Positions 43,201 to 52,789 of a DNA stretch of 64,000 nucleotides are shown in pieces. Below the pieces are notes generated by a model. That model was given only the letters and a program-made list of their open reading frames with translations, was not told where the DNA came from and made no database searches. A program made the position numbers and the translations under genes. Position 1 is the stretch's first letter. Each line of letters opens with the position of its first letter. This DNA is from Elusimicrobia bacterium CG_4_9_14_3_um_filter_62_55 (lineage in GTDB: Bacteria > Elusimicrobiota > Elusimicrobia > UBA1565): the NCBI GenBank assembly GCA_002790095.1, contig PFUL01000011.1:1-64000 (forward strand). Direction: 5' to 3'.

Positions 43201-43367
43201 TCGATCTGGGGAAAGGCCTCTTTCGTGATCGTGAAGGCTAAGAATCCCCCGACAAGGAGAACAATGGCGGTCACGAGATTCGTGAAGACGTGGCGGCCGG
43301 CGAAATAGCGGAAGAGCGCGATCTCCCGAGGGTCGCGGTCAAGGTCGGACGGGGCGTCTCGCTTCAT
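40221..43367 (-). CDS. RND-family efflux pump (AcrB/HAE1-type inner-membrane transporter)
   Basis: This is a 1048-residue RND transporter with 12 predicted helices and two large periplasmic domains. Typical stretches include PQIEFDMIIVSTPFRGAVPEEVE, VTNLLTMFSF-like helix 4 (VNLLTMFSFILVSGMLVDDGVV, with the two essential Asp residues) and GLTGLMGVVVNNSILLVEAM in the second half. It uses proton motive force to extrude drugs, metals or lipophilic compounds. The gene follows the MarR-TolC fusion with a 4-base overlap and precedes folB. No membrane-fusion (HlyD-type) adaptor gene is next to it, although most RND pumps need one. Confidence 0.93.
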   Translation of the reverse strand: MKRDAPSDLDRDPREIALFRYFAGRHVFTNLVTAIVLLVGGFLAFTITKEAFPQIEFDMIIVSTPFRGAVPEEVEQLVTVPIERAIKGVDGIDKMESWSVEGNSVILLRIDPDHPDKKKTLKDVERSVDQVRNSELPEDGNEPTVTEITHNQPVLNIDLSGAPENRLREVAYALADDVVELEGVALASKKGYRSEQVWVEADESRLDALHLSLVDLIDSIRASNHTSPGGRMLKDGQEILVRTIGRLQTARDVENVVVRSNVEGERIRVGDVAVVRETYRRESEFTRVNGTKSLQVRVLKKPSGDSLDVAERTRELVDKYRVRYPDVAFSYSDDVTFYIKRRLDVLLHNGMSGIVLVLVSLFFFLSPVSAVFTTMAIPFAFLGGLICMQALGYTVNLLTMFSFILVSGMLVDDGVVISEFYEAKREEGLPAFKAAVVATSQMAIPVTVSVLTTIVAFCPLAFVSGIMGKFLRQFPIVVVLVLAVDLIECLFVLPSHLALFSPRIRFPAWVERARAFGPRLITLLEDGYVPIVRTLVLRPIASSFLFIVLLASSLGASALLLKFHMFPVSVDEFFVSIEMPIGSSLDTTSEAMESIEKLLLALPKEEVESIITEIGIIGDENQRRRGTHFAQSRIVLDNTGKRTRDGAVILKEIRPDMEAAAKRIGAVTLEITQRRAGPPGGKAVEVRLSGDDFDALSKLSDEAQEWLKTQNGVFGIKDDFTPGKEELLLQVDVPAVARAGLSPARVAQVVRAAFDGEIATEIQRADADENIEVLVKLPEAARGRDDTIERTRITNPRGHLVPLSQLVSTKKGKGYLFIPRAEGKRTITVQADLDQEQTSSGIVNKAFGKFLEELVAKHPGIGWEFVGEEKDRIETVSSLIKAMALACLVIYTLMATLFNSFLLPIIVMSVIPFAFIGVFLTLLMHGLPLSMLVLIGLTGLMGVVVNNSILLVEAMGRLKVEMPNLEFTERVVTAGKQRLRPIVLTSVTTFFGVAPLGYGIGGREPFLEHVALTFGWGLLFTAVITLYLVPVMYATLNRMKAWFGLADA

Positions 43368-45328
43368 CGCAGGGTCTCCACGGCCGCGCCCGGCGCGACT
43401 CCGATCTTCAGCAGCAATACGCCTTCCGCCGAGAACGCCTCGATGCGGCGCTGAGCGAATTCCGCCTCGGCCGTAAGACGCGCGCTGCGCGCGTTCAGCG
43501 CGATGTTGGCGTCGCGCAGGCGATCCTGGCTGGCGATCCGGCCTTGGGAATACTTCTTTTTGGAAAGTTCGAGCACCTCTTCCTGCATCGTTTCAAGCCG
43601 GCGAAAGACGCGTACCCTCTCGGCGGCGACGCTAAGCCGGCGAATCGAGTTCTCGACTTCGCGGCGGACGCGCCGCTCGAGCGCGGCGTCGCGGGCGTCG
43701 GAGAGGATCTTCGCGGCGGCCGCGTCACGCTCGGCCGCGCGGTCGGCGCGCGCGCCGAAGGGATAGGAGAAGTCGAGACCCAAACTCCAAGTCCGGTAGC
43801 CGAAGCGGCCGAGCTGCGAATAGCTTTCGGAGGCGGAGTTTTTCAGTCCGGCCCATCCCAAGGAACCTTTCAGCGCCAGCCGCGGAAGACCGGCTCCCGC
43901 CTCCGCCGAGGCGAGCGCTTCGGCGTCCCGCCGCAGGGCCGCTCTCGCCGAGGCAACGTCCGCGCGCGCGGCGAGCGCGGAGGCGATGACGGCGGATATT
44001 TCTCCGGGGTTTTCCGGCTCCGGGGGGGATTCGAGCGCGGCTTCCTCGATGCGGCTCGGATCGCCGCCCGCGGCTTCCGCGAGCTCGACGGCGCGCTCAA
44101 CGGCGCTCTCCCCCGCATCCAGCACCTCTAATTGCTTGGCGAGGAGGTCCGCTTCGGCGCGGAGTTCGTCGTCGCGCTCCGCTTCGAATCGTTTGCGCAG
44201 CCGCCGCGTGGTTTCGAGAAATTCCCGAGCCTCTTCAGCGGAGCGTCGATAGACCGCGACGGCTTTGCGCGCCCGCCAAAGCCGCCAGTAACCTCCGGCC
44301 GCTTCCGCGGCCGCGGTTTCCGCGGCCCGATGAAGCGCGGCGCGCGCCGAGGCTGCCGCGTATTCCGAAGCGCGCAGGGCCGCGCGTTCGGGCGTTCCGA
44401 TCATCCCCCTCAGCAGCGGTTGACGGAGGGTCAGATCGAGTCCGCTCCGGTGGCGGGGGTTGAATGAGAAGGTGCTGGAGACGTCATCGTTCTCCTTCGC
44501 GACGTTGGCCGCGAGGGTTGCGTCCGTCCCCAGCGAGAAGTGCTTCGCGAGAGAGGCCGAACCGCTGTCGGTGACGGTTCGGGCGGTTTGAAAGATGAAG
44601 GTCGGAGGGGTTTTCGCGTCGAGACGCTTGACGCTTGCCGCGAGCGACGGATCGTAGGCGCCCAACAGCCGCATCTGCGAGGCGAGGGCCGCGTCGACGC
44701 CGCGTCGGGCTTCAGCCACGCCGGGGTGAACAGCCAGCGTTTCCAAAACGCAATCCCGGACGGTCCAGGTGCTTGCGCGCGCGGGGAGGGCGGCGGCGGC
44801 GAAGAAAAACGCCGCGCCCAGCAGCGGCAAGAGCCGTTCGCGGATTTTCTCCAAGGCGCCGTTCAACGCCTTCGCTTCCTTGGGTTTTAGGTCGCGGTAG
44901 AGGGAATGCAGCAGCGAAAAATAGTCGGGGGCGATTTTCTCAAGAATTTTCTTCCCGCGCGGCGTGATCGAGACAAGGGAAACGCGTCGGTCGTCGGGGT
45001 CCGGAAGGCGTTCGACCGCCGCGCGCTTCTCGAGCGTGTCGATGATTCCGGTGATATTCGCCTGTGTGACTGCGAGTTCGCGGCTGATCTCGTTCATCTT
45101 CAACGGGCGTAGGGCGCTGTCGAGCATGATCAGGACGCCCAGCGCCGGCGGGCTGAGATCGTGCCGGCGCAGATGCTTGCGCATCGCCCGCCACAGCATG
45201 TCGGCCGTTCGGATGATGCCGAGGTGAGCGGAAACGGAGGCTCCGTCGAAATCCGGAAATTTCCGACTGATGTAGTCGAAGCGGTGCCTATAGTGTTCGG
45301 CGAGTTGTTCCCTCTTTTCGGGAGGCAT
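43364..45328 (-). CDS. MarR-type regulator fused in frame to a TolC-family outer-membrane channel
   Basis: One uninterrupted 654-codon frame. Residues 1-~160 are a MarR repressor with a winged helix (MNEISRELAVTQANITGIIDTLEKR, then PDPDDRRVSLVSITPRGKKIL). Residues ~167-186 form a signal-peptide-like helix ending LPARAS. Residues ~187-654 are a TolC-type channel with two long coiled-coil halves. A separate TolC could start at the TTG at 44830 but no ribosome-binding site is visible there. The MarR part normally ends near residue 160, yet no stop occurs. Either this is a genuine fusion, a membrane-tethered repressor, or a stop was lost. TAGAAT lies 6 bases before the ATG. Confidence 0.82.
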   Translation of the reverse strand: MPPEKREQLAEHYRHRFDYISRKFPDFDGASVSAHLGIIRTADMLWRAMRKHLRRHDLSPPALGVLIMLDSALRPLKMNEISRELAVTQANITGIIDTLEKRAAVERLPDPDDRRVSLVSITPRGKKILEKIAPDYFSLLHSLYRDLKPKEAKALNGALEKIRERLLPLLGAAFFFAAAALPARASTWTVRDCVLETLAVHPGVAEARRGVDAALASQMRLLGAYDPSLAASVKRLDAKTPPTFIFQTARTVTDSGSASLAKHFSLGTDATLAANVAKENDDVSSTFSFNPRHRSGLDLTLRQPLLRGMIGTPERAALRASEYAAASARAALHRAAETAAAEAAGGYWRLWRARKAVAVYRRSAEEAREFLETTRRLRKRFEAERDDELRAEADLLAKQLEVLDAGESAVERAVELAEAAGGDPSRIEEAALESPPEPENPGEISAVIASALAARADVASARAALRRDAEALASAEAGAGLPRLALKGSLGWAGLKNSASESYSQLGRFGYRTWSLGLDFSYPFGARADRAAERDAAAAKILSDARDAALERRVRREVENSIRRLSVAAERVRVFRRLETMQEEVLELSKKKYSQGRIASQDRLRDANIALNARSARLTAEAEFAQRRIEAFSAEGVLLLKIGVAPGAAVETLR

Positions 45329-45363: not shown

Positions 45364-45380
45364 ACCCTTGAGGATGAATT

Positions 45381-45412: not shown

Positions 45413-45511
45413 ACAAATCGATGGGCCGAATACGGACGCGATTTTGGGACTTCCGGCTCATTCCTATTCCGGTGGAACGCAATACACTCCATTAATAGGA
45501 GGAGCACCCGT

Positions 45512-48500
45512 ATGAATCGCTCAACATTTCGATCCACTCTCTCCATTTTCCTCGCCGGCGCTCTGATCGCGCTGTCTCCGGGTTGGGGCGCCTATGAGGC
45601 CGCCGCCCGCACCGTCGGAGTCGCCGCGACAAACACGGGAATCGCACCGGTCGGTTCCATGGCAGGATTCCAAGCGATGCCGCTCGCGGGTCCTTCCCTC
45701 AATGTCGGTTCGCTCGCCCCGGCGTCGTTGACCGGTTCTCTCCCGACGCTCGCTCCGATGGCGCAAATCGGTTCGGTCGAAGCGTCCCCGGCCGCGGTTC
45801 GCGCCGTCGATCCTGGAAAATCCGTCTCTGCCCCCGCGGCCGTTTCCGCTCCGCTTTCCGCCGCGATTCGCCTTCCGGCGGCGGCCGCCGCCGTCGAACG
45901 CGCCCCCGCGCGGACGGCTCCCGTCCGATCCGGGATCGAGTCGCGCGCGCCGCCTGCGGCCCGCGCGCCAAAAGGCCTTCTCGCGACTCTGAGTCTCGCG
46001 CTTCCGGATTTTAAATCGATGGGCTCGGCCGCGGCGAAAGACGCCGCCGCCTCCGACTTCGCGGCCCGCCTCGGCGGAGGACTTATCCGCGGCTCGGACT
46101 CCGCCGCGGTCAACGCGGCCGATGCCGCGAAAGGCAAAACGTTGCGCGGACTCGCGCTTCAGTCTTCAAAGAAGGACATGCCCGACAGCGCCGACGACCG
46201 TTCGCGTCGCGGCGGTCCCAACGATACGGGCGATATCGACGAAATAGGGAACCCCCGCCGCCGGGGAGGGGAAGGCGGACCGGACGATTCCAGCGATCCC
46301 GACTACGGCGGGGACCGCGGCGGCAACGACGGCTATATCGGGGGAATGCCGTTGTTCGCGGCCGCGGCGCCGGTCTTTCTGGCCGCGTCGGCGATGTTCA
46401 TGGGCGGCGCCTTTATCGACGGTTCGCTGGCCGCGAAGCTCGTCTTCGTTCCCCTTTACCTCGGTCTGATGATCCCGGCGTTCATTCTTCACGAAATGGG
46501 ACACGCCTGGGCGGCGAAAAGGCTCGGCGATCCGGGACCGGCGTTGAAGGGCCGTTTAAGCTTCAAGCCCAAGAACCTGATGACTCATATCGATCCGATT
46601 TGGACCCTGGCGGTTCCGATCGGTCTGTTTTTGACCACCGGATTCCTGTTCGGCGGCGCGCGCCCCATCGAGACGAACGCCGACCGTTTCGCGCGGCCCG
46701 ATCGCGACAGCGCTTTGGTCGCCTTGGCGGGTCCCGCCGTCAACTTCGGCCTCGCCGCGCTCGGCGCCGTCGCGTTTGCCGCGGCGACGGCCCTCGGCGC
46801 CCCGGCGCTGGTCGGAACCTTGGCGGCGTCGTTCGTCTTCTTCAACGTGCTGCTCGGGGTATTCAATCTGATCCCGGTCGCGCCTCTCGACGGACATCAC
46901 ATCTCGCGATGGTTCCTGTCCGATGTGCTGGGGCGCCCCGATTGGGGAAGAAAAGCCGCCGCGCTTCCTCAGATTCAATACGGGCTTTTGATCGCGGCGT
47001 TCCTCGGGGTCAATATGCTGTTTCCCGGCGCGATCCTCGGCGCGCTGCAGACGGTGACCGGGTGGTTCCTCGGCGTTCCGTTGATGGCGCTCGGGGCCGC
47101 GGGCGTGAGCGTGGCCGCCGCCGGTACCGGCGCGGGCATGATGGCCGGGATGGTGAAGGGACGTTCCTCGGATCGCAGTCTGCCTCCAAATTCTCTGGAG
47201 GCCGGGGTTCCGGTCGTCAATGATCGAATCGACTTTCCGGCGGCCAAAACCTTCATCGTTCAATTCGAAGGAGCGGGGACTCAGATCGCCCAGGACGCGC
47301 ATTTGGGCGCGGTCGACGTCAACTCCGCGGGGGGAATGGGACTCTTCCGCCGGACTTCGCAGGCGATGACCGCTCAACTCGCCGGCATGGGGCTCACGCT
47401 GCAGGCGCTCGGTCGCTTCGGCGCCGCTCCGGTGGCCACGTATAAGCGGATCAACGCCGCGACGATCCAGGTCGCCGAAACGCGAGTCGCCGATTTTAAA
47501 GCGGACATGCAAGCGCGCGGTTACCGCGTGTTCGAGAACGAGCGGCGCGACATCATCACTCCGATCGAAGACGATCCGTCGATCACGATTCCTGAGTCGG
47601 CCGAGCCGCGTTGGGGCAAGGCGACTATCGACGAGACGAAGGCGCTTTCGACGATGGACAAGGTTCACGAAATCGCCCGCAAGCGTTGGGGTTCCCCGGA
47701 CGGGACCGGCATGCGGGCGAAGATCCTCGCGGCCGTGCTCGGACTGCTCGGGGTCGCGATTCCGCAACCGTTGATCGGCGTCATCGACACCGGCATCGAG
47801 CCGACGCATAAGGCGATCGCCGTGGGTCTCAAGGCCGCCAAGGACGTCCGTCCCAACGGCGACGGGGTCGATGTGAACGGGCACGGCACCTGGACGCATG
47901 GAATGGTCAATCTTTACGCCCCGTGGCTGAAGAACTCGATGACGCACTATAAGGCGTTCTCCAACCAGGGCGCGACGCTCGACGACGTGCTGAAGGCTCT
48001 GACGATGTCGGCCAACGACGGCAATTTGGTTGTCTCCAACTCCTGGGGATCCAACGACGGCAATCCGGAGAGCCCCGACTCGCAGATGGTGAAGAAGATC
48101 GCCGAAGAAGGGCGGATCATGGTCTTCGCCGCGGGCAACAACGGGTATTCGGGCCGCAACACGATCGGTTCTCCGGCGATCACCGTGCACAAGGCTCCCA
48201 ACGGCGCCCCGCGCGTGATCGCGGTCGCGGCCACCGATTCGAATAAGAAGGTCACGAGCTTCTCCTCGAAGGGTCCCGGCAGCCGGATCACCAGTCGCGG
48301 AGGCAAATGGGAAAACTACCCCCGCCGTCCGGACATGGCCGAGCAGGGCAACGACACCGAAGGCCCGTGGCCGTCCTTTAAAAATCCGACCCGAGTCGAT
48401 GAGAAGTACGGTCCCGTTCGCGCGATCTCCGGAACCTCGATGTCGACCCCGAAGGTTGCGGGAACCATCGCGATGCTCGCGCAGCTGTTCGGCGTGACCC

Positions 48501-48754
48501 AGGTGGGCGAAGCGCTCGATCGGATCGCCTGGGCGGTCATGGACTCGCTCGATAAGAGCACCGGGCAAGAGGATTGGCAGGTCGGAGACGGCTTCTCGGT
48601 CGCCCTTGCGGCGTACGAGAAGCTCACGGCGGCCGGCATGCGGGCGGTACGCCCGAACTGGATCGTGCGTTTGGCGATCTGGCTGCTCGACAAGTCCCCG
48701 GCGCGTTCCGGTCCGCCGAACCCGGCGCCGGCGGCGCCCCCGAGCCCGTGGTAA
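45512..48754 (+). CDS. Fusion protease: M50 site-2 intramembrane protease plus S8 subtilase
   Basis: This is a 1080-residue protein. It has a signal peptide, then a long Ala/Pro/Val-rich stretch (~35-200) and a Gly/Asp/Arg-rich linker. An M50 metalloprotease domain lies at ~270-540: HEMGH zinc motif at residue ~327 and NLIPVAPLDG at ~452, both within membrane helices. After a possible I9-like propeptide region (~590-700) comes an S8 subtilisin domain with the full triad: Asp ~759 (VIDTGIEP), His ~791 (NGHGTWTH), Ser ~976 (GTSMSTPKVAG), plus the oxyanion Asn ~876. The ATG at 45512 follows AGGAGGA. It would join a membrane-embedded and an extracytoplasmic protease in one chain. The substrate is unknown. 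Confidence 0.85.
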   Translation: MNRSTFRSTLSIFLAGALIALSPGWGAYEAAARTVGVAATNTGIAPVGSMAGFQAMPLAGPSLNVGSLAPASLTGSLPTLAPMAQIGSVEASPAAVRAVDPGKSVSAPAAVSAPLSAAIRLPAAAAAVERAPARTAPVRSGIESRAPPAARAPKGLLATLSLALPDFKSMGSAAAKDAAASDFAARLGGGLIRGSDSAAVNAADAAKGKTLRGLALQSSKKDMPDSADDRSRRGGPNDTGDIDEIGNPRRRGGEGGPDDSSDPDYGGDRGGNDGYIGGMPLFAAAAPVFLAASAMFMGGAFIDGSLAAKLVFVPLYLGLMIPAFILHEMGHAWAAKRLGDPGPALKGRLSFKPKNLMTHIDPIWTLAVPIGLFLTTGFLFGGARPIETNADRFARPDRDSALVALAGPAVNFGLAALGAVAFAAATALGAPALVGTLAASFVFFNVLLGVFNLIPVAPLDGHHISRWFLSDVLGRPDWGRKAAALPQIQYGLLIAAFLGVNMLFPGAILGALQTVTGWFLGVPLMALGAAGVSVAAAGTGAGMMAGMVKGRSSDRSLPPNSLEAGVPVVNDRIDFPAAKTFIVQFEGAGTQIAQDAHLGAVDVNSAGGMGLFRRTSQAMTAQLAGMGLTLQALGRFGAAPVATYKRINAATIQVAETRVADFKADMQARGYRVFENERRDIITPIEDDPSITIPESAEPRWGKATIDETKALSTMDKVHEIARKRWGSPDGTGMRAKILAAVLGLLGVAIPQPLIGVIDTGIEPTHKAIAVGLKAAKDVRPNGDGVDVNGHGTWTHGMVNLYAPWLKNSMTHYKAFSNQGATLDDVLKALTMSANDGNLVVSNSWGSNDGNPESPDSQMVKKIAEEGRIMVFAAGNNGYSGRNTIGSPAITVHKAPNGAPRVIAVAATDSNKKVTSFSSKGPGSRITSRGGKWENYPRRPDMAEQGNDTEGPWPSFKNPTRVDEKYGPVRAISGTSMSTPKVAGTIAMLAQLFGVTQVGEALDRIAWAVMDSLDKSTGQEDWQVGDGFSVALAAYEKLTAAGMRAVRPNWIVRLAIWLLDKSPARSGPPNPAPAAPPSPW

Positions 48755-48831: not shown

Positions 48832-49227
48832 ATGAAGATGGAGACGGCAACCCAAACGAAGATTCTGGTCGTCGATGACGACGACCACTTCCGCGAGACG
48901 CTCAGCGACGCCATGTCGCTTAAGGACTGCTCGGTGACGGGCGCGGTGTCGGCCAAGGACGCCTTCTCCAGCCTCTCGACGACCAAGCCTTCTGTGATTT
49001 TGCTGGATGTGCAGTTGCCCGACGCGAACGGCGTCGATTTGTGTCGAAAAATAAAGGCGGATAAGCGCTACCAGGGCGTCCCGGTGGTGCTTTTGTCCGC
49101 GAAGTTTACGGAACCCGCGGACCGAGCCGAAGGGCTTCTCGAGGGCGCGGATGCGTATTTGTCGAAGCCGGTTCAGCTCGACAGCCTCTGGGAAGAGATT
49201 CGTTATCTTCTTGACAGGCCCTCCTGA
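48832..49227 (+). CDS. Stand-alone response-regulator receiver protein
   Basis: This is a 131-residue CheY-like receiver. It has the acidic pocket (VVDDDDHF), the phospho-accepting Asp at about residue 59 in ILLDVQLPD, the Thr/Ser position (VVLLSAKF) and the invariant Lys in YLSKPVQL. No output domain is attached, so it probably acts by protein contacts or as a phosphorelay sink. The cognate kinase is not in the window. It ends 83 bases before trxA; the trxA promoter overlaps its 3' end. Confidence 0.92.
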   Translation: MKMETATQTKILVVDDDDHFRETLSDAMSLKDCSVTGAVSAKDAFSSLSTTKPSVILLDVQLPDANGVDLCRKIKADKRYQGVPVVLLSAKFTEPADRAEGLLEGADAYLSKPVQLDSLWEEIRYLLDRPS

Positions 49228-49310: not shown

Positions 49311-49637
49311 ATGGCTGAACTCCAGCTTACGGACGATAACTTCGAGAAGGAAGTATTACAGGCGACCGAACCCGTTTTGGTCGATTTTTGGGCGCCCTGG
49401 TGCGGCCCGTGCCGGATGTTGACCCCGATCGTCGAAGAATTGGCCGGCGAATATGAGGGCAAGGTCAAGGTTGCGAAGCTGAACACCGATGACAATCCGA
49501 ACGCCGCGACGCGCTTCAATATTTCGGCGATCCCTACGATTCTCTTTTTCAAAGGCGGAAAAGTTGAGCAGCAGCTGGTCGGCGTCCACTCGAAAGCCGA
49601 CATCAAGAAGACCCTCGACGAACTGGTCGCGGCTTAA
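49311..49637 (+). CDS. trxA: Thioredoxin
   Basis: This 108-residue cytoplasmic disulfide reductant has the canonical active site FWAPWCGPCRM and the cis-Pro segment ISAIPTILFFKGG. The length is normal. It has its own promoter and a good ribosome-binding site. The next gene encodes a TlpA-like lipoprotein whose frame begins inside trxA, so the two redox proteins are linked transcriptionally. Confidence 0.97.
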   Translation: MAELQLTDDNFEKEVLQATEPVLVDFWAPWCGPCRMLTPIVEELAGEYEGKVKVAKLNTDDNPNAATRFNISAIPTILFFKGGKVEQQLVGVHSKADIKKTLDELVAA

Positions 49638-50133
49638 CTCTTTCGCCGCCGCCGCGCTTGCTGCGGCGCTTGCGGGGGCCGGCTGCGGCGGGGGCGGAGC
49701 CGCCTCCGGCGGAAGGAAGGCTCCGGATTTTTCCCTAAAGGATTTATCCGGGCGCGCCGTCGGTCTCACCGATTTTGCCGGGAAGGTCGTGTTGATTGAT
49801 TTTTGGGCGACCTACTGCATCCCCTGCGCGGACGCGATTCCTGAAATCCAAAAACTCTACGAGACGCATCGCGAGAAAGGATTCGAGGTCGTCGGGATCA
49901 GTGTCGACCCGTTCGTGAAGAATGTACCGTCGTTCGTAAAGGAATTGAAGGTCGGATATACGATCGTTTTAGACCCGGACGCGAAGGCGCAGGACGCCTA
50001 CCGCGTTCGGGGACTGCCGGAGACGTTCCTCGTGGGGCGCGACGGCGCGCTTCTCGAACACTGGATCGGATACGATGAGGAACTTAAAGCCGAGATTAAG
50101 AACGCGGTCGAATCCGCTCTCCGCGCTTCGTAG
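49564..50133 (+). CDS. TlpA/ResA-like thioredoxin-fold lipoprotein
   Basis: An AhpC/TSA-TlpA-type thioredoxin domain (~130 residues) follows a hydrophobic signal with lipobox ALAGAGC. The domain has APDFSLKDLSGRAV, the catalytic FWATYCIPCADAIPE (active-site pair Cys-Ile-Pro-Cys) and GLPETFLVGRDG with the cis-Pro region. It probably reduces disulfides in the periplasm, for example during cytochrome c maturation. The start is uncertain: no ATG or GTG precedes the signal, and the TTG at 49564 inside trxA gives a 189-residue preprotein. Its end lies 5 bases before polA. Confidence 0.82.
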   Translation: MSSSWSASTRKPTSRRPSTNWSRLNSFAAAALAAALAGAGCGGGGAASGGRKAPDFSLKDLSGRAVGLTDFAGKVVLIDFWATYCIPCADAIPEIQKLYETHREKGFEVVGISVDPFVKNVPSFVKELKVGYTIVLDPDAKAQDAYRVRGLPETFLVGRDGALLEHWIGYDEELKAEIKNAVESALRAS

Positions 50134-50137
50134 CGCC

Positions 50138-52789
50138 GTGCCGAAAAATACCCGAAAAACCCTTTATCTCATAGACGCCCACGCCTATCTGCATCGGGCG
50201 TATCACGCGCTTCCGCCGCTGACAACGAAAAACGGGGAACCGGTCGGGGCGCTTTTCGGCTTCGCGCGGATGCTTCAGTCGCTGCGCAAGTCCAAGAGAC
50301 CCGATTACATCGCGGTCTGCTTCGACACTCCCGAGAAAACCTTCCGGCACGAGAAATTCGAGGACTATAAGGCGACGCGCGTCGAGATCGACGCGGATTT
50401 GATCGCGCAACTGGAGATCGCCGAGGAATTGACCCAGGCGCTCGGTCTTCCGACGGTCGCCGCTCCCGGGTTCGAGGCCGACGATCTGCTCGCCACGCTC
50501 GCGCGCCGCGGAGTTCGCGAAGGAATGAGCGTCGTTCTCGTCACCGGAGATAAGGACGCGCTGCAGCTCGTTGACGGCGATATTCAAGTGTGGAACGAAG
50601 CCCGGCAAAAGCTCTTTGACGCCGACGCCGTTTTCGAGAAATTCGGCGTGCGGCCCGATCAGATCGTCGACTACCTGACGATCGTGGGAGATAGTTCCGA
50701 CAATGTCCCCGGCGTTCCCGGCATCGGCGCAAAGGGCGCCGCGAAGTTGCTCGCGGAGTTCGGGACGCTCGAGAAACTCGTAAAGGCGGCGCACAAGGGG
50801 CATGCGGGTCTGAAGCCCAAAGCGGCCTTGTCCTTGGTCGAAAACGAGAAGCAGACGCTGGCGAGTCGGGAACTCATCGTCCTCCATGAGGAGGTCCCCA
50901 TCTCCTTGCTTCCGACGGAATGCGTCGTGGAGATGCGCGATCCCGCGGCCGCCGAAAAAATACTCACCCGTTTGGAATTTCACAGCCTGCGCCGTGAACT
51001 CTTGGGTCAGGAGACCGAGTCGGCCGAGGCGGGGGGGGGGCGCGCGCCCGTTCCGTCCGCGCAGCCCGCCGACGCGGTCGGCATTACCGTTTCGTTCAAG
51101 AAATCCGATCCGAAAAAGATTTTGGAGGCCGCGCTCAAAGCCAAGCGCGTGACTCTTTCGGTCGAGCCTCCGGCGCAAGCGGATCTGCTCAGCGCCGGAA
51201 TGCCGGTCGTCGCCGTCGCACTGGCAGACGGTCGCGCCGCGTCGTTTACCGACGAGGATTTCGCCAAGCATCGCAAGGGTTTGGAGGCGTTTTTCCGAGC
51301 CGAGCGGCCGCTCAAGGACGGTTTCGATTTGAAGACCGCGCGCCGCCGTCTGGCGGAAGCCGGACTGGAATTGGAGGGGCTCGGAGACGACGCCTATGTG
51401 CTGGCGTATTGTCTCGACCCGTCCCGGGGATCCTACACGCTCGAGGCCTGCTGTGCCGCGCGCGGGGTCGGGGAGTCTCCGGTGGAAGTCGGCGAAGCCG
51501 CGTGCTGGCGGGCTGCGGCGGCGGGTGCGCTTTGCGAAGGGCTGCTGGAGGAGGTCCGCGCTGCGGGGCTCGAAAAGCTGTACCGGGAAATAGAGCTTCC
51601 GATGGTTCGCGTACTCTCGGACATGGAGAGGCGCGGCGTCTATATCGACGCGCGCTACCTGAAGAAGCTTCGCGTCGAATTCGAGGCCCTGATTTCCGGA
51701 TTGCAGAAAGAAATCGATCGCCTTGCCGGCGTCGAGATCAATCTACGTTCCACCAAACAGTTGGGAGAATTACTCTACGACACGCTCGGCCTGCCGGTCG
51801 CTCATAAAACGAAAAAGGGCGGCCGCTCCACGGATGAGGAAACGCTCCGGGGCCTGGCAGAAGCGCACCCCATCCCCGCCAAGATCATCGAATTCCGGGA
51901 AGTGACGAAGCTTCAGTCCACCTACGTCGTCGCGCTGCTGGAAAAAATCGACTCGAAAACGGGCCGGGTGCATTCCCATTTCAATCAGGGCGGCACGGCG
52001 ACCGGCCGCCTGTCGAGCACCGATCCGAACCTGCAGAATGTCCCGGTGCGCACGGAACTCGGGCGTAAAATCAGGGCCGCGGTGCGCGCCGAAAAGGGGA
52101 AGGTCCTTCTCGCCGCGGATTACTCGCAAATCGATTTGCGGGTGCTCGCGCACCTCTCCGGCGACGAGGCGCTATGCGCGTCTTTCCGCTCCGGCGGGGA
52201 CATTCACCGCCGGACGGCCGCCGAGGTGTTCGGCGTGGAACCCGAGCTCGTGGACAAGGAAATGCGGCGGCGCGCGAAAGCCGTCAATTTCGGGATCGTT
52301 TACGGGCAAAGCGCCCACGGGTTGGCCGTGGAACTCGGCATCACGCGTCCCCAAGCGGCCGATTTCATCAAGAAATATAAGGAACGCTATCCCGGCGTCA
52401 CGCGGTGGATGGCCGCAACCCTGGAGGCGGCCAAGCGCGACCGTGCGGTCAGGACGCTTCTGGGCCGGGTCCGGCCTCTTCCCGATATCGCCGCGAAGAA
52501 TTTTCAAGTGCGCGCGTTCAATGAGCGCGTCGCGATCAACACTCCGATCCAAGGGACTTCGGCCGACATCATCAAGGCGGCGATGCTGGCGATCTACGCG
52601 GAGCGCCCGGAGGCGGGGCTGGTGCTGCAGGTTCACGACGAGTTGGTATTCGAACTTCCTAAGAAGGAAGCGAAGGCCTTCGGCGTGTGGGTGCGCGCCG
52701 CGATGGAAAACGCCGTACACTTGTCCGTCCCGGTCGTTGTCGACGTGAAAATCGGGGAGGATTGGAACTCGATGGAGGCAGCCTCATGA
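50138..52789 (+). CDS. polA: DNA polymerase I
   Basis: This 883-residue repair and Okazaki-fragment polymerase has the 5' nuclease domain (~1-290; LIDAHAYLHRAYHA, PGFEADDLLATLA, GDSSDNVPGVPGIGAKGA) and a polymerase domain (~500-883) with motif A DYSQIDLRVLAHLSGD, motif B RRRAKAVNFGIVYGQSAHG and motif C QVHDELVFE. Between them the 3'-5' exonuclease domain is shortened: the first motif reads SVEPP where DxE is expected, and no clear second or third acidic motif is found. Proofreading is therefore probably absent, as in Taq polymerase. The GTG at 50138 gives the standard N-terminus. The gene overlaps the rhomboid gene. Confidence 0.95.
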   Translation: MPKNTRKTLYLIDAHAYLHRAYHALPPLTTKNGEPVGALFGFARMLQSLRKSKRPDYIAVCFDTPEKTFRHEKFEDYKATRVEIDADLIAQLEIAEELTQALGLPTVAAPGFEADDLLATLARRGVREGMSVVLVTGDKDALQLVDGDIQVWNEARQKLFDADAVFEKFGVRPDQIVDYLTIVGDSSDNVPGVPGIGAKGAAKLLAEFGTLEKLVKAAHKGHAGLKPKAALSLVENEKQTLASRELIVLHEEVPISLLPTECVVEMRDPAAAEKILTRLEFHSLRRELLGQETESAEAGGGRAPVPSAQPADAVGITVSFKKSDPKKILEAALKAKRVTLSVEPPAQADLLSAGMPVVAVALADGRAASFTDEDFAKHRKGLEAFFRAERPLKDGFDLKTARRRLAEAGLELEGLGDDAYVLAYCLDPSRGSYTLEACCAARGVGESPVEVGEAACWRAAAAGALCEGLLEEVRAAGLEKLYREIELPMVRVLSDMERRGVYIDARYLKKLRVEFEALISGLQKEIDRLAGVEINLRSTKQLGELLYDTLGLPVAHKTKKGGRSTDEETLRGLAEAHPIPAKIIEFREVTKLQSTYVVALLEKIDSKTGRVHSHFNQGGTATGRLSSTDPNLQNVPVRTELGRKIRAAVRAEKGKVLLAADYSQIDLRVLAHLSGDEALCASFRSGGDIHRRTAAEVFGVEPELVDKEMRRRAKAVNFGIVYGQSAHGLAVELGITRPQAADFIKKYKERYPGVTRWMAATLEAAKRDRAVRTLLGRVRPLPDIAAKNFQVRAFNERVAINTPIQGTSADIIKAAMLAIYAERPEAGLVLQVHDELVFELPKKEAKAFGVWVRAAMENAVHLSVPVVVDVKIGEDWNSMEAAS

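Follow-up and report, generated by a model that had tools for sequence, protein, structure and literature searches.

In regulated intramembrane proteolysis (RIP), whether carried out by DegS/RseP or by the eukaryotic site-1 and site-2 proteases (S1P/S2P), one soluble-type protease is coupled with one of the site-2 type. In eukaryotes, the site-1 protease belongs to the subtilases, and the active site of site-2 proteases usually lies close to the cytosolic side of the membrane. Among the described groups of site-2 proteases, group I carries a PDZ and group III a CBS domain, and groups II and IV are described without extra domains (PMC10202637). The M50-S8 protein that we describe here is similar to the PDZ-less M50 proteases MjS2P (3b4r) and SpoIVFB in its HExxH and NxxPxxxLDG motifs, its helical core and its fold but, instead of the PDZ or CBS domains of groups I and III, it possesses a pro-domain and an S8 domain. 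It also shares the Asp/His/Ser triad, the oxyanion Asn and the pro-domain fold of pro-subtilisin and the S8 family, from which it differs by the membrane protease domain that precedes S8 in the chain. As in RIP, a soluble-type and an S2P-type protease are combined, but in one polypeptide, the halves of which are separable by gene loss; the obligatory coupling of both protease types characteristic of RIP does not hold for it, given the existence of S8-only and M50-only orthologs. Its closest relatives in the phylum, with about 33–46% identity, are the stand-alone M50 proteins of other Elusimicrobiota (mostly 210–240 aa) and a paralog in the same genome (L002), which lack the leader, linker and S8 domain that the fusion has. 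In the group scheme of S2P, PDZ and CBS are the extra domains described, so that this combination of two known peptidase families is, as far as checked, a new architecture there. The preliminary description named no system with this pair in one chain, and the open-access papers searched yielded no M50-S8 chain either.

An M50-S8 fusion in a single chain

The window (the whole stretch of 64,000 nucleotides analysed) lies on contig 185 of a 4.3 Mb, 95% complete metagenome-assembled genome (MAG; G000). An uninterrupted open frame of 1080 aa runs from an ATG at 45512 to a TAA at 48752–48754 and codes, in this order, for a signal-peptide-like leader, a disordered linker, an M50 domain with 6–7 helices, a subtilisin-type pro-domain and an S8 domain (Table 1). 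The linker has two conserved motifs, D-E-I-G-N-P-R-R and GGPDDxSDPD (GNPRR...GGPDDxSDPD in many rows), which S8-only orthologs keep as well. The start first proposed, at 45512, is retained, because both the leader alignment and the ribosome-binding site fit it and disfavour an upstream in-frame TTG at 45368.

Table 1. Features of the M50-S8 locus (positions in the window; residues of the fusion protein)
Feature	Position	Strand	Evidence
Ribosome-binding site GGAGGAG	45498..45504	+	sequence
M50-S8 fusion gene, 1080 aa, stop included	45512..48754	+	sequence, Pfam
Signal-peptide-like leader, residues 1-32, AxA site after A32	45512..45607	+	alignment, leader searches
Linker, Ala/Pro-rich then acidic, residues 33-274	45608..46333	+	alignment, model
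M50 site-2-protease-type membrane domain, residues 275-530	46334..47101	+	Pfam, models
HEMGH zinc motif, residues 327-331	46490..46504	+	sequence, alignment
NLIPVAPLDG second motif, residues 452-461	46865..46894	+	sequence, alignment
Subtilisin-type pro-domain (beta-alpha-beta-beta-alpha-beta), residues 577-690	47240..47581	+	model, fold match
S8 subtilase, residues 745-1042; D759, H791, N876, S976	47744..48637	+	Pfam, phmmer, alignment
Single-domain response regulator	48832..49227	+	ortholog directly after fusion or variants in f1, f3
Thioredoxin (trxA), conserved neighbour	49311..49637	+	locus comparison
DNA polymerase I (polA), conserved neighbour	50075..52789	+	locus comparison

The claim that this frame holds two complete active sites is borne out by both Pfam matches and invariant residues. 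The M50 part matches PF02163 (Peptidase_M50; 1.1e-12, 48.2 bits against a curated cut-off of 27.2), and its HExxH and (L/F)DG motifs are invariant in 21 of 21 M50-bearing rows of the alignment. A model of this part (mean pLDDT 81) contains the three-helix intramembrane catalytic core and finds its best fold match in MjS2P (3b4r; probability 1.00, E 4.4e-3), with SpoIVFB also matching; the M. jannaschii site-2 protease was likewise a weak phmmer match of the fusion in the PDB. Helix 1 is modelled with low confidence, and the matches of stand-alone relatives start at the HExxH helix. Neither a PDZ nor a CBS domain was found in the fusion, as Pfam searches up to E 1 gave M50 and S8 only.

The S8 part matches PF00082 (Peptidase_S8; 2.5e-31, residues 753–993, 109.5 bits against a curated cut-off of 21.8), and phmmer aligns PDB subtilases over about 747–1001. 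The triad D759, H791 and S976 and the oxyanion N876 are invariant in every readable S8 row of 27. In the whole-chain model, built from 27 sequences (mean pLDDT 69, with low values over the linker), helices occupy 282–529, a beta-alpha-beta-beta-alpha-beta domain occupies 578–681 and the S8 fold is present. Its best fold match is unprocessed pro-subtilisin E, with about 480 columns aligned across pro-domain and S8, and the S1P ectodomain (9csd) is among the other matches. The pro-domain corresponds to that of pro-subtilisin in fold and position, with no I9 match in Pfam, which makes it a possible I9-type domain; judging by the pro-subtilisin-like model, the fusion would probably process itself at this domain. 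Ka/Ks values between close pairs are low (0.25–0.39 for M50 and 0.13–0.24 for S8), as expected of domains under purifying selection. Both enzymes look active.

An assembly error, which the preliminary description had named as a possible refutation, or an annotation artefact joining two genes can be safely dismissed: the same frame is present in independent MAGs and in a closed nanopore chromosome, CP096137.1 (G024/L013/L076), and no evidence favouring such a join was found. This chromosome, sequenced at 47x, comes from a bacterium that its authors describe as diderm and place in GTDB order UBA1565 / SILVA Lineage IV (PMC9476967). The M50-S8 fusion in a single chain is thus real and conserved.

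Distribution and a modular operon slot

Of the 56 genomes searched of the GTDB order UBA1565 (Elusimicrobiota Lineage IV), at least 23 have M50 and S8 in a single frame, and they represent all three of its families (f1, f2 and f3). Among the matches listed in a scan of 341 genomes of the phylum, those outside the order were stand-alone M50 proteins of about 210–310 aa. Across 84,980 species genomes, all matches with at least 36% identity came from Elusimicrobiota-type MAGs, and the remaining ones were S8-only proteins (25–35% identity), mainly from Actinobacteria and Chloroflexi. Spread by plasmids found no support: coverage of the query stays below 80% in every plasmid record, and the best rows are S8-only or M50-only with less than 40% identity. 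On the S8 tree, with its deep forks unresolved, the M50 state must have changed at least twice; given the three families, one M50 insertion with two losses would be the simpler reading.

Directly downstream of the fusion, f1 and f3 have a single-domain response regulator, the gap often being shorter than 25 bases, and usually trxA and polA come next. An ortholog of this regulator (43–80% identity) exists in about 50 of the 56 genomes of the order; in f2, fusion and regulator lie apart, on different contigs. The slot itself varies in content. In genera g11 and g19 it holds a leader-linker-pro-S8 protein without M50, in genera g12 and g18 a leader-linker-M50 protein without S8, with the regulator next in each, and in genomes where neither half is present in the slot it is occupied by MFS, M48, ABC proteins or other genes. 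The gene thus occupies a modular operon slot, newly described here. Upstream, among the loci examined, those of f3 have an M48-MFS fusion, or the M48 or MFS part alone, and an f2 genome (G002) has an M48 membrane peptidase. In three loci (L057:771-5642, L054:3-5864 and L141:9773-14845), leader, M48 and MFS are joined in one chain of 1600–1950 aa upstream of the M50-S8 or M50-only gene. Elsewhere in the window (43364-45328, minus strand), a MarR regulator and a TolC-like outer membrane efflux protein are read in one frame of 654 aa, inside which a stretch resembles a signal peptide; a sister genome has this frame too (L051:2624-4552).

A common leader and the topology of the M50 core

The leader of the fusion, which shows AxA-like sites in most aligned rows, recurs on other large proteins of the order. 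This common N-terminal element consists of a hydrophobic stretch, SPG and then an AxA-like site, and a search at E<=1e-4 detected it in 50 of the order's genomes, in 10 further genomes of the class and in none of the remaining phylum genomes searched. It occurs mostly on large proteins of up to about 5400 aa (M50-S8, M48, MFS/ATP-grasp, ABC exporter and S8-HEAT), with copies in the source genome on contigs C185, C61, C69, C21 (2), C123, C188, C125 and C142. Among its bearers are giant proteins of 1830–3365 aa with M50 and two Walker A motifs in Clp-like spacing (L035:92-10186, L036:614-9451, L037:2109-9353, L039:4795-12753, L040:5352-12215 and L041:4337-9826), in which a single polypeptide combines an M50 protease with a Clp-like unfoldase; Pfam confirms ClpB-type AAA+ in L035, L039 and L041, and a copy in the source genome (L004:1965-5570) is cut by the contig end. 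In the same genome, MFS and ATP-grasp/L-amino-acid-ligase-like domains occur together in a leader-bearing protein of 2091 aa (L162:471-6743). Another leader-bearing open frame, of 5405 aa (L165:379-16593), shows no HExxH, GTS or Walker A motif.

Leaders on MFS, ABC and AAA+ proteins are puzzling for topology: since these domains need a cytosolic side, the leader is perhaps something other than a normal signal peptide. An outside N-terminus combined with an even helix count would entail an inverted M50 core, so that an M50 domain with six helices of the M. jannaschii type would be inverted unless helix 1 does not span the membrane. The loop charges disagree with leader and helix count, as the net-positive loop after HEMGH follows the usual cytosolic pattern, and hydropathy and loop charge together point to no single topology.

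Possible roles of the two halves

As the best explanation, we tentatively propose that the fusion is a dual protease anchored in the membrane, that it works in envelope proteolysis and that it is specific to order UBA1565 of the Elusimicrobiota. The leader would place the N-terminus outside the inner membrane and the S8 half would mature via autocleavage of its pro-domain; once mature, it could cut exposed stretches of membrane or exported proteins, and the M50 half would cut membrane segments in the same place, for instance stubs or the remnants of signal peptides. Both would mostly work side by side, their expression or activity being possibly tied to the neighbouring response regulator. Sequential cutting of one substrate might occasionally occur, but it would not be required because either half can be lost. 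Reciprocal losses of M50 and S8 in one slot are more easily reconciled with parallel work than with an obligate relay.

Such a relay would amount to single-chain RIP, in which S8 as site-1 and M50 as site-2 protease act on one dedicated substrate in signalling with the adjacent regulator. Both sites are invariant in every fusion, the regulator lies directly downstream in f1 and f3, and the subtilase nature of the eukaryotic site-1 protease, together with the 9csd match, points in the same direction. However, the two halves are separable, as S8-only and M50-only orthologs share the slot, which argues against an obligate relay; moreover, the source genome has a separate full-length RseP-type M50 for canonical signalling, the regulator consists of nothing but a receiver domain and thus has no DNA-binding domain, and no sigma/anti-sigma pair was recognised next to the gene. 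We therefore consider this relay unlikely, and a little less likely still that the protein is the first single-chain site-1/site-2 protease, a bacterial counterpart of eukaryotic S1P/S2P that performs both RIP steps linked to the lone regulator. Should the leader indeed direct the N-terminus outward and helix 1 cross the membrane, this reading would add an inverted M50 core. Thus, of the idea put forward in the preliminary description, the resemblance to a site-1 subtilase and a site-2 M50 protease stands, with two complete conserved sites, and the proposed purpose, both cuts on one substrate, is weakened by the S8-only and M50-only orthologs and the separate RseP-type enzyme.

Alternatively, the M50 half might mainly anchor, activate or release the subtilase: after insertion of the chain and maturation of S8, cleavage in the linker or membrane part would free S8, so that the protein would be a zymogen with its own release factor. 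The location of the pro-domain between M50 and S8 is consistent with this, as are S8-only orthologs that have the leader and no anchor, and the conserved basic NPRR motif of the linker, which M50-free orthologs also keep. Yet M50-only orthologs in the same slot need another role, and the Asn/Pro of the second M50 motif and the Asp/Gly of LDG are as strictly conserved as the zinc site; we consider this explanation about as unlikely as the relay. Quite improbable, finally, is the processing and export of small RiPP- or pheromone-like peptides by M48, MFS, M50 and S8 together. It would agree with the M48-MFS neighbour, with the leader-bearing ABC exporters and MFS/ATP-grasp ligase-like protein of the order, and with a weak match of the M50 part to the NCBIfam daptide protease model (9.2e-7, well below cut-off), but no conserved small precursor gene was found among the common neighbours (frames of at least 90 aa), and the gene lies next to trxA and polA, which are housekeeping genes, and has been inherited along with the order.

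The fusion brings together two protease classes normally encoded by separate genes, and the M50-only and S8-only orthologs in the same slot represent natural controls. They make it testable how tethering affects substrate handling and which half the regulator depends on. More generally, the locus draws attention to the leader-bearing fusions of membrane proteases and transporters in uncultured Elusimicrobiota, a set that is specific to the order and has been little studied.
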